64,000 bases of DNA, taken from assembly GCA_028823235.1 (NCBI GenBank), contig JAPKBW010000006.1, positions 124,001-188,000 of the forward strand, given 5' to 3'. This DNA is from Longimicrobiales bacterium. GTDB lineage: Bacteria; Gemmatimonadota; Gemmatimonadetes; Longimicrobiales; Gaopeijiaceae. Made by a program: the position numbers and the translations under genes. Under the pieces are notes generated by a model that was not told the DNA's origin, searched no databases, and saw only the letters and a program-made list of their open reading frames with translations. Below are positions 21,420 to 63,687 of the stretch, piece after piece (positions within the stretch are counted from its first letter, which is position 1; each line of letters opens with the position of its first letter).

Positions 21420-22301
21420 CTACGGCAGGAAGACAGAGCCGAGTGCTGCGAGCCCCGTAAGCCCGATCAACACGACGGCACAACGCCAGAACGTATGCTG
21501 GTCGAGCCTTCCGGAGAGCCAGTCGCCAACCCAGCCCCCAACCAATGCAACGGGCACTAGAAAGGCGGTGGCTCGCCAGACGGCTCCCGATACACCCACG
21601 ACTCCTGCCTGGAGCCCGAGCGAACCGACGTAAACCAGAAAAAAGAAGGTCATCATCGTTGCCCGCATCGCGTCCTTCCGAACGCACAGGGCAGCCAGAT
21701 ACAGCACGACCGGCGGCCCAGGCATCCCGAGTGCGACAGTCATCGCAGCGGCAATGCCACCGATCCCAGCTGCTGTCGACCCTCGCCACACGACGTCAGA
21801 CTCTCCCTGCCCGGGTGTGTCGACCAAGGACGGTCGACCGGCGTACCCTCTCCGGATCAGATAGGCGGCCGACCCCAGCACGATCACCGAGACCCCGATG
21901 AGTAGTTGCGACTCGTCAGCTCGGGTAAACAGGAGCAGGCCAACAGGCCATCCAATCACAGCGCCCAGCAGCATCTGACCCACCATACGCCAAATCACCT
22001 GATCACGCATTCTCCAGGCCAGGCCGGAGCAAATCGCAAGGGTAAGGACGATGACGAGCGGAACCGAGTCTGCGGAATCCGTAATCAACATCACGGACGG
22101 AAGCGCCAGCAGCGCGAACCCAAAACCCGCGGCACCCTGCACGACCGCCCCGACAAACACGACGGCCCCGAGTTGGGCTACTGAGACGAGGGTCAGTGAA
22201 TCGATGTAATACCCTAGGGGTGGCGTAACGTATGTGAGAAGCCTGAGTATATTGAAATACTTATGCAGTTCCAGATTTTCGGAGGATCGCAGATGGTTCA
22301 C
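21420..22301 (-). CDS. TauE/SafE-family (TSUP) permease
   Basis: A membrane protein of up to 293 residues with about eight transmembrane helices. It carries the TSUP signature VVQGAAGFGFALLALPSVML near the N-terminus and the second-half repeat GMPGPPVVLYLAAL. Family members export sulfite, sulfoacetate or similar organosulfur anions; the substrate here is unknown. The start is uncertain: GTG 22301 overlaps the divergent plug gene by nine bases, and no other ATG/GTG lies before the first helix except a GTG within it. Confidence 0.85.
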   Translation of the reverse strand: MNHLRSSENLELHKYFNILRLLTYVTPPLGYYIDSLTLVSVAQLGAVVFVGAVVQGAAGFGFALLALPSVMLITDSADSVPLVIVLTLAICSGLAWRMRDQVIWRMVGQMLLGAVIGWPVGLLLFTRADESQLLIGVSVIVLGSAAYLIRRGYAGRPSLVDTPGQGESDVVWRGSTAAGIGGIAAAMTVALGMPGPPVVLYLAALCVRKDAMRATMMTFFFLVYVGSLGLQAGVVGVSGAVWRATAFLVPVALVGGWVGDWLSGRLDQHTFWRCAVVLIGLTGLAALGSVFLP

Positions 22302-23108
22302 GCGCGACTACGCGCGTTCGCTCTGTTGAGGTTGGTGGTGGTAGTCGCGCTCGCAGCAGGAGTGGCGCTCCCGACAGCCGCGCAGACGATCGAGGGCACA
22401 TTGATGGAAGTGGAGTCGGGCACGCCGATTTCTCTCGGACTCATCATTCTGATGACCGAGGCGGGTGACTCCATTGCATCAGCAGTGTCCAACGGTCGGG
22501 GTCGATTCTCCGTCGAGACACAAGGGGCCGGATCCTTCGTCCTAATCGCTTCGGCCTTCGGCTTCAAGGAGACTGCGGCAGGCGTATTTGAACTCGGCGA
22601 CAGCGGCGAGATGGACGTGGAATTCAGGATCGCCGCAGCACCCATGCCAATCGACGGAATTCTTGTTTCGCTTCAGCGTCCCGCCCTCCAGCACCAGCTT
22701 GTGAAGAACGGCTTCGTCCGACGGGTCACGCGGGGACTTGGACACTTCATCACACCGATCGTCATTGAGAAATCCCCCGCAAGGACAGCCGAGGACCTCT
22801 TCATGGGAATTCCGGGCGTGCTGTTGGAATACCCCCAGGGTGGACTCAACGCCTTCGAGGGTATGACCGTCCGAATGACCGGCGTGGGTCAGTACTGTTC
22901 GCCAACGATCTACCTCGACGGCGCACGCATGTCGGTGAACATGACACAGGACATGCCCATCCAGCTCCTCGCGCCGCTTGAGATGATCGACGCGGTGGAG
23001 ATCTATCGGCGACCCGCCGAGGTCCCGATCGAGTACGGCATGACCACCAGCGGCGGCGCCTCCGGTGGACCCTGTGGCGTCATCGTCATCTGGACCAAGA
23101 CGCGGTAG
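22293..23108 (+). CDS. Carboxypeptidase-regulatory plus TonB-plug protein without barrel
   Basis: A 271-residue exported protein. GGAGG lies upstream of ATG 22293, which decides the start. Signal peptide to about residue 30 (LPTAAQ). Residues 32-115 form a carboxypeptidase-regulatory-like beta-sandwich (TIEGTLMEVESGTPISLGLI). Residues 150-271 form a TonB-receptor plug-like domain: EDLFMGIPGVLLEY, a cysteine-containing strand (QYCSPTIYLDGARM) and IDAVEIYRRPAEVPIEYG. The protein stops directly after the plug, so no beta-barrel follows. Two related large proteins lie at 52597 and 61455. Function unknown; it may be a periplasmic binding partner. Confidence 0.85.
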   Translation: MVHARLRAFALLRLVVVVALAAGVALPTAAQTIEGTLMEVESGTPISLGLIILMTEAGDSIASAVSNGRGRFSVETQGAGSFVLIASAFGFKETAAGVFELGDSGEMDVEFRIAAAPMPIDGILVSLQRPALQHQLVKNGFVRRVTRGLGHFITPIVIEKSPARTAEDLFMGIPGVLLEYPQGGLNAFEGMTVRMTGVGQYCSPTIYLDGARMSVNMTQDMPIQLLAPLEMIDAVEIYRRPAEVPIEYGMTTSGGASGGPCGVIVIWTKTR

Positions 23109-23121
23109 GGGCGATCCGGTC

Positions 23122-24402
23122 ATGACCGGACCACGCGCCCTGCGCGTTAGAGGGTTCGTCCTCGCAGGCATCGGAATTCTATGCGCCTGCACCCCCGGCG
23201 ACGACGCGGCGACATCCGGTCTGGCATCGGTCGGCTCCGGAGTGCAGCGCGCTGATTCGCTCGTCGAGTCATGGGTGCGCGAGGGGCAGATCCCAGGCGC
23301 CGTCCTGCTCGTGTCAAAGAATGGCAACATCCTTCACGAGAAAGCCTACGGATGGTCGAGAGTCGAGGACTTCGGCGCCGGCCAGTATCCTGACGCGCCT
23401 CCCCCCGAAGTCACCGAGGTCGCCACTCCTACTGCGATGATGGCCGAGACAGTCTTCGACCTCGCCTCCGTGACCAAGGTCATGGCTACTACAATGGCCA
23501 TCATGCTCCTCGTCGATCAGGGTCTGGTCGAGGTCGACGCCCCGGTGGTCGACTACCTGCCGGATTTCCGAGGTGGAGGGAGGGAGACGATCACTGTGCG
23601 CCACCTGCTCACACACACATCAGGACTCTTCCAGTGGCAGCCGACGTACTACCATGCCACCGATCGCGACGAAGCATACGCCTACATCAGGGACCTCCCC
23701 CTGAGATGGCCGGTTGGGGAAGGACGCCACTACTCGGATCTGGGCTTCATGCTCCTCGGACGCATCGTGGAGGAGCAAAGCGGCGAACGCTTGGACGCCT
23801 ACGTTGGGGGGGCGCTGTTCGAACCGATGGGCCTCTTGAACACCGGCTTCATCGCATCTACGCGCCGCGGGGAGTCGCATTTCGCCTCAACATCACACGG
23901 GAATCCGTTCGAGCGCCGCATGGTCCACGACCCGGATTTCGGCTACGCCATCGAGGGAGACCCCGACCGCTGGGACAATTGGCGACAATACACTCTCTCC
24001 GGCGAGGTCAATGACGGAAATGCACATCACGCGTTCCAAGGTGTGGCTGGCCACGCAGGCCTGTTTTCTACCGCGCGCGAGCTCTCGACTCTCCTTCAAA
24101 TGTTGATCGATGGCGGGAAGCACGACGGGCAGCGTCTGGTTGAGAAGGCCACCGTAGATCAATTCCTGACCCAGGAAGTCGATGGACAAGCCCTCGGGTG
24201 GCAGCTCCCCGACTATGCGCCTGCCGAGACGTTCGCCCATACCGGCTTCACGGGAACGTTCGTTGCGGCCCTCCCCCACTCGGACCTCACCGTCGTCCTG
24301 CTCACCAACCGTCAGAATTTCGGTGTGGACGAAAGCACCAACTACACCGACGTTGGACCCCTGCAACGTGCGGTCATCGAGGCCGTTACGACGCACCACT
24401 GA
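23122..24402 (+). CDS. Serine hydrolase, class C beta-lactamase family (lipoprotein)
   Basis: A 426-residue penicillin-binding-protein-like serine hydrolase. An N-terminal signal segment ends at ILCACTPG, a possible lipobox. The catalytic SxxK is SVTK in FDLASVTKVMATTMA near residue 120. The second motif is YSD (GRHYSDLGFML) and the KTG equivalent is HTG (AHTGFTGTFVAAL). Members act as esterases, D-aminopeptidases or beta-lactamases; the exact activity cannot be read. The ATG at 23122 lies 13 bases after the plug gene's stop and 33 bases before the M28 gene, suggesting one transcript. Confidence 0.88.
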   Translation: MTGPRALRVRGFVLAGIGILCACTPGDDAATSGLASVGSGVQRADSLVESWVREGQIPGAVLLVSKNGNILHEKAYGWSRVEDFGAGQYPDAPPPEVTEVATPTAMMAETVFDLASVTKVMATTMAIMLLVDQGLVEVDAPVVDYLPDFRGGGRETITVRHLLTHTSGLFQWQPTYYHATDRDEAYAYIRDLPLRWPVGEGRHYSDLGFMLLGRIVEEQSGERLDAYVGGALFEPMGLLNTGFIASTRRGESHFASTSHGNPFERRMVHDPDFGYAIEGDPDRWDNWRQYTLSGEVNDGNAHHAFQGVAGHAGLFSTARELSTLLQMLIDGGKHDGQRLVEKATVDQFLTQEVDGQALGWQLPDYAPAETFAHTGFTGTFVAALPHSDLTVVLLTNRQNFGVDESTNYTDVGPLQRAVIEAVTTHH

Positions 24403-50150: not shown

Positions 50151-50549
50151 ATGAGTCCTCAGTCATCCACAAAAGTCGTCCTTTTTGCTTTCGCCCTGGC
50201 ACTGGGCCTGACCGCGTGCGCGTCGGGCGGCGGCGGCGCTAGTAGTCGGCCAGCAGGCGCGACAAGTAGCCGTATCGTCCGGGCAGAAATCGAGGCGCTA
50301 CCGCCAATGGATGCACTCACGGGGATCCAGCGCCTCCGGCCGCGCTGGTTGCAGTCCCGTGCCGGATCCGGCGCCGGGGATCCTCCAGTTCTTTATGTGG
50401 ACGGGGCCCGACGCGGCGCCACGACCGACTTGGCTACGATGCGGGTAGCCGAGGTTGAGCAGATGAATTACATGAGTGCGAGCGATGCAACCACTCGTTA
50501 TGGCACAGGTCACGGCGGCGGGGCGATCCAGGTCACGACCAGGCGCTGA
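50151..50549 (+). CDS. Minimal TonB-plug-like lipoprotein
   Basis: A 132-residue lipoprotein. The signal peptide ends at the lipobox LTACASGGGG. The mature part ends with PVLYVDGARRGATTDLATMR, EVEQMNYMSASDATTRYGTG and GGGAIQVTTR, the closing half of a TonB-receptor plug (the '..vyvDG..', '..v..ievl.g..A..yG', 'gGvi.i.TK' pattern). Nothing follows: no barrel. AAGGAG lies seven bases before the start and a terminator follows, so it is a complete stand-alone gene. It is the smallest of four such proteins in the window. Confidence 0.85.
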   Translation: MSPQSSTKVVLFAFALALGLTACASGGGGASSRPAGATSSRIVRAEIEALPPMDALTGIQRLRPRWLQSRAGSGAGDPPVLYVDGARRGATTDLATMRVAEVEQMNYMSASDATTRYGTGHGGGAIQVTTRR

Positions 50550-52596: not shown

Positions 52597-53919
52597 ATGA
52601 CTGAAGCCTTGAGAATCCGCCTGATGATTGTAGCCGCCCTGCTTGTATGGGCGCCTCCGGGGATGAGTGCGCAGTCCGGAATCGTTTTCGGAACAGTGTA
52701 CGACTCGATCGCGAATGAGCCACTTCCCGATGCCGCCGTCTTCCTCTGGGAAACGCCGTACTCTGCGGAGACTGACAGTCAGGGACGGTTCCGCATCGAG
52801 GACGTGCCGGCCGGAGACTACAGTATCCTTTTTTTCCATACGCGGTTGGGTGAGCGCGGCATCTCGACCGGTTCCCGAGCCATCTCTGTCCAAGCGGGCG
52901 TTGACCAGCAAATAGACCTCGGCATGCCTTCCCTTGCGACCCTTGTTCGAAGCCAGTGCCTTATGGAGAGTCGGTCCGAGGGCGCTGGGGCGCTCGCCGG
53001 AAAAGTGACCGATAGTGAGTCGGCGCTCGCACTCGGGGGTGCCCGCGTCACGCTGTCATGGCACGAAGAGAGCCTCACGGTTCCAAGGAGGCTAGAGGCA
53101 GTGACCGATCAGGCTGGTTGGTATCGTAGCTGCGCTGTGCCCGTTGGGATCCCCATTCTGCTCTCGGTCGACTTCTATGGTCGTCAGGGACGCCGCCGGG
53201 AAGTCACGGTCGGAGCGAGTGGGTATCTCGAGGCCAACGCAGAGCTTTTCGCGAGTCGCCCGGTTGAGGTCTCAGGAAGGCTGCTCGACAGGGATTCAGG
53301 AGCGCCCGTAGAGGGTGCCGATACCTGGCTCCGGGGCACTAGGTTTCGCATGCTCACGTGGCCCAACGGTGAGTTCTCGTTCGACGACGTGCCCACCGGC
53401 ACATACATGCTGATGACCGACCATCTGGCGTACGGCACCAAGATGGACACTCTCTTCGTTCCGAACGGGACCGACCTCCGCATAGAAATGATTCTGGATA
53501 ACCGGCCGATCGAGATCGCCCCGCTTACCGTCGTCACGAGCGCACCGCCCGTCGCGATCGCCCAGCGCAGAGGCGGCATCGTGATCACCAGTGACGCGAT
53601 CGACAAGGTCCGACAGCGCTCGAGAGACGCATCCGACATCATTCGATCCCTGAACATCCCCGGGATCCTGGTTCGACACCTTACCGGCGGAACCATCTGC
53701 GTCGGCTATAGCACCGGACAAGTGATGATGAATCGGGCCGGCTGCGTGGGGATGCTGATCTTCATCAATGATGTGCGGGCGACCGACGCGAACATGGCGC
53801 TCAGACTGCCCCCGGATGCGATCGAGCGCATGGTGGTGTACAAGCCGGTGGACGCCGGGACTCTCTTTGGCCTCGGCGCCGCCAACGGCGTCTGGATGAT
53901 CTACACGCGAGGCAACTGA
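52597..53919 (+). CDS. Carboxypeptidase-regulatory repeats plus TonB plug, no barrel
   Basis: A 440-residue exported protein; GGAAAG lies just before ATG 52597. Signal peptide ends near GMSAQ. Three carboxypeptidase-regulatory-like domains follow (starting near GIVFGTVYDSIANEPLPDAA, LAGKVTDSESALALGGARVT and VSGRLLDRDSGAPVEGADTW), each with the 'D..G.F....vp.G.Y' pattern. From about residue 300 comes a plug-like domain (ITSDAIDKVRQRSRDASDII, a cysteine in GTICVG, another in AGCVGMLIFINDVRA) ending in IERMVVYKP and GVWMIYTRGN. The chain stops where a beta-barrel would begin. Close in design to the protein at 61455. Confidence 0.88.
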   Translation: MTEALRIRLMIVAALLVWAPPGMSAQSGIVFGTVYDSIANEPLPDAAVFLWETPYSAETDSQGRFRIEDVPAGDYSILFFHTRLGERGISTGSRAISVQAGVDQQIDLGMPSLATLVRSQCLMESRSEGAGALAGKVTDSESALALGGARVTLSWHEESLTVPRRLEAVTDQAGWYRSCAVPVGIPILLSVDFYGRQGRRREVTVGASGYLEANAELFASRPVEVSGRLLDRDSGAPVEGADTWLRGTRFRMLTWPNGEFSFDDVPTGTYMLMTDHLAYGTKMDTLFVPNGTDLRIEMILDNRPIEIAPLTVVTSAPPVAIAQRRGGIVITSDAIDKVRQRSRDASDIIRSLNIPGILVRHLTGGTICVGYSTGQVMMNRAGCVGMLIFINDVRATDANMALRLPPDAIERMVVYKPVDAGTLFGLGAANGVWMIYTRGN

Positions 53920-57599: not shown

Positions 57600-58334
57600 G
57601 TGGACGTCACTATTTCCTTTCCTCTGGCTTTTCTCGCTGGCATCGTCTCGTTTCTTTCTCCCTGTATTCTTCCGGTTGTCCCGAGTTATCTGGCCTTCGT
57701 ATCAGGCCTCACGTTCAGCGAACTCAAGGACCAGCCGACGCGGGAAATCCGCCGAACCGCTGTGCTCAATTCCGTGCTGTTCGTAATCGGATTCAGCGTG
57801 GTCTTCATGACCATGGGTCTGGCGGTCACCTCGGTCGGAGTAGCGATCTCCTCGGTCCTGCCCTGGGTGAGTCGGATTGGTGGTGCAGTAATGCTTCTTT
57901 TTGGACTCCACCTTGCTGGGTTGCTGCGCATCCCTGTCATGATGCGGGAAATGCGACCCGGTTGGATGTCGCGGCCAACAGGTGCAGTCGGTGCGTTCAT
58001 CGTTGGGATCGCATTTGGAGCGGGGTGGACACCCTGCATTGGCCCCATCCTCGGTTCGATTCTACTCTATGCTAGCCTTGAGGGGACTATGATTCAGGGC
58101 ACGTTTTTGCTCGGGACCTATGCTTTGGGCTTGGGTATACCGTTCGTCGTGTCGGCCGCAGCGTTGAATTGGTTCCTCGCCGGGAGCAAACGCGCTAGAA
58201 CGTGGATCCTTCCGCTACAGAAGGTCGCGGGAACCGTGCTTATCTTGATTGGTCTTCTCATGGTAAGTGGCCGTTTTACCACCATGACTGCTTTTTTGGC
58301 CGGAATGGGCCAACTCATCAACTTGGATTTATAA
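57600..58334 (+). CDS. ccdA: Thiol-disulfide membrane transporter CcdA
   Basis: A 244-residue membrane protein with six predicted helices. The two redox cysteines are in FLSPCILPVVPSYLAFVSG and GWTPCIGPILGS, the CcdA/DsbD hallmark. It carries electrons from cytoplasmic thioredoxin to periplasmic proteins for cytochrome c maturation. GTG 57600 has GGAG upstream. The next gene starts one base after its stop. Confidence 0.95.
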   Translation: MDVTISFPLAFLAGIVSFLSPCILPVVPSYLAFVSGLTFSELKDQPTREIRRTAVLNSVLFVIGFSVVFMTMGLAVTSVGVAISSVLPWVSRIGGAVMLLFGLHLAGLLRIPVMMREMRPGWMSRPTGAVGAFIVGIAFGAGWTPCIGPILGSILLYASLEGTMIQGTFLLGTYALGLGIPFVVSAAALNWFLAGSKRARTWILPLQKVAGTVLILIGLLMVSGRFTTMTAFLAGMGQLINLDL

Positions 58335-58335
58335 C

Positions 58336-59091
58336 ATGAGGCTCACTTCTTTCCCGGTTCTGCTCCTCGCTGCTGGACTGGTGATTTCCGGTTGTTCTGA
58401 AGAGGCTGGTAAGGACGGCACCAGCGATCTCAGCAGAAGCATGCTGTCGGAGCCGCCCGGTGACGGCCTTTCGACACCCATCGCGAGCGCACCCACCAGC
58501 GGGCCGGGCGAAGAGCCCTTGGTCCAGGTGACTTCTCTCGGGATCAATCGAGGATCGCTCGAGGCGCCGGTAAAAGTGGTCGAGATGTCCGACTATGGGT
58601 GCGGATATTGCCGGCAGTTTCATCAGGAGACCTTTCCCACCCTCCTTACGGAATTCATCGACAGCGGGATGGTCGAGTGGAAATTCGTACCCTACATAAC
58701 TGGGATGTTTGGGAACTCACTCCCTGCGACATCGGCGGCCGAGTGCACCTATGTCCAGCAGGAAGCCGCATTTGAGCGGCTAAACTCCCGACTCTGGAAC
58801 GAGCAGAGTGTCTGGAAGGGCTCCGACGAGCCAGCTGAAGTGATCCGGCCTTGGGTCGAGGAACTTGGTATCGACATGGTGGTTTTCGATGCCTGTATTC
58901 AGGGGGACGAGCGGCTTGATCGGATAGCATCAGCTACCACCCTCGCTCGCCAACTCGGGGTTCGGGGCACTCCAACGTTCGTGGTCCTTGGGTATGGGCC
59001 ACTCCAGGGTGCGCTTCCATTGGAGACCTTCCAAGATCTCTTGGCTGCAGTCCACACCGATCTCACGGGAACCCCAGGTATTCCTGAATAG
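58336..59091 (+). CDS. DsbA-family thiol-disulfide oxidoreductase lipoprotein
   Basis: A 251-residue lipoprotein with lipobox LVISGC, a 50-residue linker, then a DsbA/thioredoxin fold: VVEMSDYGCGYCRQFHQETF carries the CGYC active site, and RGTPTFVVLG the cis-proline. It resembles the DsbA-like family used for disulfide formation or isomerisation at the outer face of the membrane. It is translated directly after CcdA, which probably keeps it reduced, so cytochrome c maturation for the bc complex and PSCyt1 protein is a likely task. Confidence 0.9.
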   Translation: MRLTSFPVLLLAAGLVISGCSEEAGKDGTSDLSRSMLSEPPGDGLSTPIASAPTSGPGEEPLVQVTSLGINRGSLEAPVKVVEMSDYGCGYCRQFHQETFPTLLTEFIDSGMVEWKFVPYITGMFGNSLPATSAAECTYVQQEAAFERLNSRLWNEQSVWKGSDEPAEVIRPWVEELGIDMVVFDACIQGDERLDRIASATTLARQLGVRGTPTFVVLGYGPLQGALPLETFQDLLAAVHTDLTGTPGIPE

Positions 59092-61454: not shown

Positions 61455-62828
61455 TCAACGCGTGTAGATCGCAATCGCGCCGTTCCCAGCAACTGATCCA
61501 AACTGGAACTGTGCATCGACGGGACTCAGGATCTCGATTCGGTCGATGACGTTGGGGTCGAGAGTGCGGAGCAGCTCAGCCCCCGATAGCACCACAACAT
61601 TGTTCAATGCGACCGCCGCAGGCACACAGCCTTCGCCAGCAGATCGACGTGAGACCTCGACACACAGAGTCGGAAGCATCACGCCCGTGATTTGGTCGAC
61701 CTCATACACCTCACGAATTCGCAGACCAGGAGTGTTCATGCTCCGCAACAAATCCGCAGTGGCGACGACTCGCGGCAGCATAAGTTCTATTTCTTCACGT
61801 GAAATGAAGTCGGAACGCTTCGCATCTCCAGCAAGGCTGGTGCGGCCGAAGCGTGTGCGCGCAGTCACCACCAGACCCTCGACCTCAAGAGCCTCAGTGG
61901 CCATGCGCACCTCGATATCGACGGTCTCCTGCGAGAAGACCGTTACGGAATCAGTGCGCTCTTCGAAGGCCAAATGGTCTGTCGTTACCAAGTGACGCCC
62001 CGGCGGAAGATCATCTAGAACGAACCGACCCGTCAGATCTGAAAGCGTCGAACTCGGCGTTCCCATGACAGCTATGACGGCGCCCGCAACCGGATCACCC
62101 GTGATATGGTCACGCACGTAGCCGGCCAGAGTACCCTCGGACGACATCATGAGCACCAGATCTTGAACGGATGCCGTGCCCGGCTCGAGATAGACCTCCA
62201 GGCTGACGCCGGAACTCGGTCCGAAGTGCGCCTGAAGCTTCATGTCGACCTGGGGGCGCACCGAGCAAATCCGGAAGTACCCTGCGTCATCGGTACGTAC
62301 TTCAACCGCCTGCAGTCCCACCACACGCCCCATCGGCTCCGCAACCACGATCGCTCGCGGCATGGGCACACCCGTGAGCGAGTCGGTCACAAAGCCGGCG
62401 ATGGCGGCATACCCTGGCGCAGGCTGTTCCGCTAGGCACCAGCCAAGGAGCAGGGTCTCATTCGAGGGGATCGAGAGGGTGATGTCGACCGTTTGTCCCG
62501 ATGAGAAGGTCACCTGGCGAGACTGCGGACTAACTCCGAGCTGCTGGAGTCGATCGTGAAAGAAGGACACCCAATGGGTGCCAGCCGGCACCTCCCCGAC
62601 TACGAAAGTTCCGTTCGGGTCGGTGTCGCCCAGTGCAGTCGTACCCAGCACCGCGACACGAGCACCTGCAAGCGTGGACATCGACGTCGAATCGAACACG
62701 ACGCCGCGCACGGTCGCGGTCCCCTGGCCCTGCACCTCTGACAGGGGGGCAAGCGCCAACGTGACCGCAAGCAGAACGAAGCTGGCAACCCGACTAGTAA
62801 CTCTCTGACTTTCCGACGCTCTCATCAT
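61455..62828 (-). CDS. Carboxypeptidase-regulatory repeats plus TonB plug, no barrel
   Basis: A 457-residue exported protein. Signal peptide ends near SEVQGQ. Three regulatory-like beta-sandwich domains begin near TATVRGVVFDSTSMSTLAGA, AIAGFVTDSLTGVPMPRAIV and LAGYVRDHITGDPVAGAVIA. The plug-like domain follows from about residue 350 (SREEIELMLPRVVATADLLR, TLCVEVSRRSAGEGCVPAAV) and ends NVIDRIEILSPVDAQFQFGS, then GAIAIYTR as the last residues. No beta-barrel. Cysteines around the plug occur at the same places as in the protein at 52597. The start is uncertain among several close ATG/GTG codons. Confidence 0.88.
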   Translation of the reverse strand: MMRASESQRVTSRVASFVLLAVTLALAPLSEVQGQGTATVRGVVFDSTSMSTLAGARVAVLGTTALGDTDPNGTFVVGEVPAGTHWVSFFHDRLQQLGVSPQSRQVTFSSGQTVDITLSIPSNETLLLGWCLAEQPAPGYAAIAGFVTDSLTGVPMPRAIVVAEPMGRVVGLQAVEVRTDDAGYFRICSVRPQVDMKLQAHFGPSSGVSLEVYLEPGTASVQDLVLMMSSEGTLAGYVRDHITGDPVAGAVIAVMGTPSSTLSDLTGRFVLDDLPPGRHLVTTDHLAFEERTDSVTVFSQETVDIEVRMATEALEVEGLVVTARTRFGRTSLAGDAKRSDFISREEIELMLPRVVATADLLRSMNTPGLRIREVYEVDQITGVMLPTLCVEVSRRSAGEGCVPAAVALNNVVVLSGAELLRTLDPNVIDRIEILSPVDAQFQFGSVAGNGAIAIYTR

Positions 62829-63018: not shown

Positions 63019-63687
63019 TCAGCCCCAAACGTCAAAAAAGTCGACCGATCCGGATCCGGCCCCGGCACCCTTCCGTGTCAGATATCCAGTGAGCAAAGAC
63101 CGGCACTCCTCGATAATTACTTCGCGTGAAAGGCGATCTCCGACCGCGTGAAACTCAGTGTCGACCACACCCAACACAGCCCTAAGTCCCAGTCGGACAG
63201 CTTGTTGAGGATTGTCATGATCGATCTCTTCGACTTTTTGTATCAAGAGTTCACCCAGCCCCACCAGGAGTTCGGACTGAAAGTGCTCGAAGGCGCGCCC
63301 CTGAGCGCTTCCTGCCCGATCGAGCGCCTTCAGGTAAGCAGAGCGCGATCTCTGGGCATCGATAAGCAGGCCGACCGCTCCCTCGACAATCTCTGAGAGG
63401 TCGAAACCACTCCAGTCCCGCGAGGTGATCGCCTGATTCCAACGCTCGAGCGCTTCGGTCCACACACGCTCGCCCAGGTAGTCCAGTAGATCATCCTTTC
63501 CTTTGAAACGGGCATAGAAGGATCCAACGGAAGAGTCAGCCTTTGCGACGACCTTGTGGACCGTGAGGCCATCGGGACCCTCTGTCGCGAGGAGTTCGAG
63601 AGAGGCGGCGACAATACGCTCAAGGGTCCGCTGAGACCTAGACTGCTTCGGCAGGTTGATCCGTGCGGGCCTTGGTGCGTTCAGCAT
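63019..63687 (-). CDS. TetR-family transcriptional regulator
   Basis: A 222-residue repressor-type protein. Residues 15-70 form the TetR HTH: RTLERIVAASLELLATEGPD, then LTVHKVVAKADSSVGSFYARF and KGKDDLLDYL. The C-terminal helical domain is not similar to any subgroup I can name, so the ligand is unknown. The C-terminus ends in a glycine/serine-rich tail (GAGAGSGSVDFFDVWG). Divergent or neighbouring targets could be in the sequence beyond the window edge. Confidence 0.93.
   Translation of the reverse strand: MLNAPRPARINLPKQSRSQRTLERIVAASLELLATEGPDGLTVHKVVAKADSSVGSFYARFKGKDDLLDYLGERVWTEALERWNQAITSRDWSGFDLSEIVEGAVGLLIDAQRSRSAYLKALDRAGSAQGRAFEHFQSELLVGLGELLIQKVEEIDHDNPQQAVRLGLRAVLGVVDTEFHAVGDRLSREVIIEECRSLLTGYLTRKGAGAGSGSVDFFDVWG

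Follow-up and report, generated by a model that had tools for sequence, protein, structure and literature searches.

The window, that is, the whole 64,000-nucleotide stretch of DNA analysed here (C6:124001–188000), belongs to a 3.14 Mb genome of 90 contigs, and a sequence search for relatives of this genome recovered almost exclusively assemblies of Gemmatimonadota. Genes were called using a purpose-made codon-usage caller, and signal peptides and the names of neighboring genes were judged by inspection. Free-plug protein 1 is encoded on the plus strand at positions 52597–53919, and has a length of 440 residues. It begins with a signal peptide, which is followed by three transthyretin-like domains, then by a TonB-box-like linker, and last by a plug domain that runs directly to the stop codon. 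The linker around PIEIAPLTVVT (53509–53541, plus strand) was identified by profile alignment, in which the position of the family linker corresponds to VDEVVVTG, the TonB box of Bt1763. The plug domain (53539–53916, plus strand) was assigned from an AlphaFold model, its PDB matches, and the family-invariant cysteines C368 and C383. Free-plug protein 2 (61455–62828, minus strand) has the same layout and shares about 31% identity with protein 1. It contains 457 residues when read from the ATG at 62828, which is probably the start codon, rather than 62903. A gene for a TetR-family regulator (63019–63687, minus strand; named by inspection) is located upstream of it in the same direction. Free-plug protein 3 (22293–23108, plus strand) has a single transthyretin-like domain between its signal peptide and its plug, and is 271 residues long from the second ATG; its start is probably at 22293 and not at 22263. 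Protein 4 (50151–50549, plus strand) is a short lipoprotein of 132 residues that contains only the C-terminal part of a plug and has syntenic homologues in three other genomes (G136, G075, and G035). It has no transthyretin-like domain, no visible TonB box, and no Pfam match. The preliminary description placed four exported proteins in the window, in agreement with the Sec signals and the protein 4 lipobox LTAC recognized by inspection. It also gave three of them one or three carboxypeptidase-regulatory-like domains, and Pfam finds CarboxypepD_reg three times in protein 1, three times in protein 2, once in protein 3, and not at all in protein 4.

All four reading frames terminate where a plug has its C-terminal boundary, as originally proposed, but the idea of a whole plug fails for protein 4. 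The cut-off of the Pfam Plug model (PF07715) was exceeded by protein 3 (2.2e-8), and proteins 1, 2, and 4 individually stayed below it. Because Pfam is silent for the single sequences of proteins 1 and 2, their plug status was established using relatives. Ten of the 20 family members match Pfam Plug at E ≤ 0.05, and the 20-member profile is colinear with the N-termini of SusC and RagA (E of 8.6e-11 and 1.3e-10, respectively). The colinear stretch comprises the third transthyretin-like domain, the TonB box, and the plug; it continues to the C terminus, which coincides with the end of the SusC and RagA plugs. Since fold searches with whole proteins were swamped by the transthyretin-like domains, the plug of protein 1 was folded separately, with a pLDDT of 83.3 and a pTM of 0.77. 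The 45 best PDB matches of this model are all TonB-dependent transporters, which upholds the plug fold of the preliminary description. VIA-align superposed it onto Fiu with a Z score of 10.4 (107 residues, 2.7 Å) and onto Bt1763 with a Z score of 9.7 (108 residues, 3.5 Å). The transthyretin-like part resembles the NTE of SusCdex (PDB: 9hfj; VIA-align Z 12.8, rmsd 4.0, 80 residues aligned), and Pfam scans of the window proteins and 20 relatives gave no match to the STN domain (PF07660). Proteins 1 and 2 are almost certainly free folded plugs. For the last 52 residues of protein 4 the score is 17.2 bits, compared with 5.3 bits for the best of 2000 shuffles, and judged by its sequence this protein is a partial plug.

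In all 22 complete orthologues of protein 2, the stop position agrees to within a single residue, and TGA, TAA, and TAG are all used as stop codons. Selection on these orthologues is purifying, with median dN/dS values of 0.16 for the transthyretin-like part, 0.12 for the plug, and 0.07 for the 26-residue linker, which is the most constrained stretch. No barrel sequence was detected in six frames within 3.5 kb downstream of the four window copies, or in any frame downstream of 20 of 21 orthologues; in the remaining case (L081), the barrel is that of a complete SusC encoded separately. The positive control for this search was a SusC gene from a Bacteroidota-group genome (L131:3089–6267, plus strand, genome G153), which is broken by a frameshift just past the plug and was recovered at 8e-33. 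The positions of genes 1, 2, and 4 are syntenic across genera, and gene 3 has a syntenic orthologue in a second genome of the genus, G082. That the four genes are artefacts of assembly, or TonB-dependent receptors cut short by truncation or a frameshift, is thus extremely improbable. In L131, which is such a case, the barrel continues in a different frame immediately after the plug frame. This reading is refuted for proteins 1 and 2 by the conserved stop, the low dN/dS, the synteny, and the absence of a downstream barrel, and for proteins 3 and 4 by synteny and the absent barrel, as the preliminary description had maintained.

The TetR gene upstream of gene 2 is retained, co-directional, in 21 of 23 loci, and the other neighbors vary. 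The other genes next to the window copies are either unrelated or of the housekeeping type. A serine-hydrolase (beta-lactamase-like) gene begins 14 bases past plug gene 3 (the pair spans 22293–24402), and this order is kept in G082 (L122). Between genes 1 and 2 lie CcdA-like and DsbA-like (CGYC) genes (57600–59091), possible disulfide machinery, which are kept in several genomes as one block. They were rejected as a specific disulfide partner of the plugs, since they are part of that conserved block and are absent beside many orthologues. A transporter split into plug and barrel genes was also rejected: all PF00593 matches in the genome are in frames that also carry a plug and none is in a barrel-only gene, although divergent barrels could escape the model.

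In the phylum Gemmatimonadota, 146 of 150 genomes contain a match to protein 1, the full-length matches being mostly in frames of 440–540 residues. Among 80 genomes centred on Flavobacteriaceae, the family profile retrieved SusC N-termini, and the matches listed were all in frames of at least 681 residues. At the search sensitivity used, the triple-domain free plug seems to be peculiar to Gemmatimonadota. A relative with 57% identity to protein 2, which runs out of frame, occurs in an assembly labelled Planctomycetota (L084:3609–4784), where its presence probably reflects a binning error. Counted by eye from the tables, Pfam Plug matches in frames under 600 residues make up 22 of 97 in four Gemmatimonadota genomes and 4 of 133 in three Bacteroidota-group genomes, a contrast that weakens to about 5 of 67 versus 3 of about 105 at the matched strict threshold of E ≤ 8e-11, because the free plugs of Gemmatimonadota score low on the Pfam model. 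Plug-domain counts overstate the number of receptors in Gemmatimonadota. The four window copies had been regarded as one expanded family, which the plug-region tree, built from a short domain and having long branches, contradicts. Proteins 1 and 2 fall in a well-supported clade of 23 free plugs, protein 3 in a second, and the relatives of protein 4 in yet another. As a whole, the free plugs do not form a single clade on this tree, which requires five changes, at least two of them forced. The four copies therefore represent at least two lineages that are forced and three that are seen.

The source genome encodes further free plugs at C2:171102, C3:89985, C25:14967, and C25:20458, and on contig C11. 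Two different free plugs (L089:4968–5756 and L089:10459–11274, both minus strand) flank one SusC/SusD pair on contig C25, and the C11 plug (L062:9676–10863, plus strand), which has a C-terminal, apparently membrane-spanning extension, is located directly past another such pair. Short lipoprotein-like plugs with a YGTQ-type TonB-box region are encoded directly upstream of SusC/SusD in the Bacteroidota search group (L127:4477–4989, minus strand) and in the Gemmatimonadota genome G069 (L124:2448–3020, plus strand), and have lengths of 170 and 190 residues, respectively. They resemble the window copies in being barrel-less plugs with genes of their own, but differ from them in adjoining SusCD, lacking plug cysteines, and nesting among SusC plugs on the tree.

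TonB plugs are known as parts of transporters. The open-access full-text literature that we searched contained nothing relevant on barrel-less or standalone plugs. The SusC/RagA-type transporters Bt1763 and RagA share with the free plugs the order of transthyretin-like NTE, TonB box, and plug, as well as the plug fold. The free plugs differ from them in that the reading frame ends at the plug, without the 22-stranded outer-membrane barrel in the same chain, in the two extra transthyretin-like domains of proteins 1 and 2, and in a pair of plug cysteines that is absent from the 13 full-length plugs compared. Oar-like TonB-dependent transporters similarly have a PF13620 domain before the plug and the TonB box, but Oar has a barrel, and both the plug and the TonB box are important to its function in transport (PMC6434023). 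Proteins of the type of 1 and 2 are known domains in a new arrangement.

Cysteines C121, C179, C368, and C383 are invariant in 20 homologues. Two plug-region cysteines are present in 26 of 36 free plugs and any cysteine in none of 13 full-length transporter plugs, counts in which the rows are phylogenetically non-independent, as 23 free rows form one clade and one "free" row is the frameshifted SusC of L131. From this conservation we infer that a disulfide may staple the free plugs. The preliminary description had cysteines recurring at matching points of the plug; one position is indeed common to proteins 1, 2, and 3, but the partner cysteine differs, and the plug part of protein 4 has none. 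In protein 3, the shared cysteine precedes the IDG strand (IYLDG) and is presumably paired with a cysteine in the last strand. The anchor cysteine is common to the two geometries, which suggests more than one gain of the staple. Because a working plug must be moved or unfolded by TonB (PMC11658791), which a staple would hinder, the cysteines would argue against a functioning gate. The exchangeable gate proposed earlier is thus disfavored both by the cysteine pair of proteins 1, 2, and 3 and by the confinement of PF00593 barrels to plug-bearing frames.

Deletion or mutation of the TonB box of Bt1763 causes a levan growth defect like that from the loss of SusD (PMC7782687). In the AlphaFold model of the whole of protein 2, the linker is disordered, yet it is the most constrained part of the protein, as expected of a docking motif. 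The genome encodes three proteins with the TonB C-terminal domain (TonB_C). The best explanation overall, which we hold tentatively and put somewhat short of an even chance, is that the proteins are periplasmic plugs that still present a TonB box and interact with TonB but transport nothing. Proteins 1 and 2, as full-length products, retain the periplasmic N-terminal portion of a SusC-type receptor, composed of a transthyretin-like NTE, a TonB box, and a folded plug; they have lost the barrel and carry two more transthyretin-like domains in front. Engagement would not lead to transport, since there is no barrel and the locked plug would resist being pulled open. Such proteins could serve as TonB-binding adaptors, buffers, or competitors for the transporters of the cell, and their transthyretin-like domains may bind a partner or ligand. 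Protein 3 may act alike; the same does not have to hold for protein 4, which has no TonB box. As read from the sequences, the engagement of TonB by proteins 1 and 2 has close to an even chance of being correct, and the role as buffer or competitor is doubtful. The decoy, the signalling module, and the binding module of the preliminary description are all candidate roles; a TonB-facing role is the most economical because the TonB box is retained. Against it, tonB, exbB, and exbD were not recognized beside the window copies, the TonB box is absent from protein 4 and weak in protein 3, and the conservation of so short and hydrophobic a linker may have reasons other than TonB.

It is possible, albeit rather unlikely, that the plug is a plain periplasmic or surface module that binds a glycan, peptide, or metal complex and makes no contact with TonB, with the transthyretin-like domains serving as spacers or as additional sites of binding, while the cysteines would stabilize the fold. 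The cysteine pair suits such a static domain, many proteins of binding and adhesion are among the matches of the transthyretin-like domains, the upstream TetR gene suggests ligand-controlled expression, and protein 4 manages without a TonB box. However, a binding module has no need for a linker that is the most constrained stretch or that aligns with a TonB box. The proximity of free plugs to SusC/SusD pairs in the source genome, two beside the pair on C25 and one beside that on C11, together with loci in G069, G234, and one Bacteroidota-group genome that were picked for this adjacency, would fit accessory plugs that bind the barrels or plugs of SusCD-type transporters and regulate or protect the channel. 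We consider this quite unlikely for the window copies, none of which is near a TonB-dependent receptor, and the PF00593 matches of the genome include no barrel-only gene. Furthermore, most short plugs adjacent to SusC (L124, L127, L130, and the upstream copy of L089) lack the cysteine pair and are perhaps of another kind, so two functional classes of free plug are possible.

On the preferred reading of plugs that engage TonB without transport, soluble disulfide-locked plugs across the phylum might bind TonB and tune or divert the energy for outer-membrane transport, a regulator derived from the receptor's own gate, although in this full form we regard the proposal as improbable. Plugs that are maintained by selection without a barrel but with their TonB box would be a natural soluble substrate for studies of how TonB couples to the plug, and would indicate that control is also exerted through competition for TonB.
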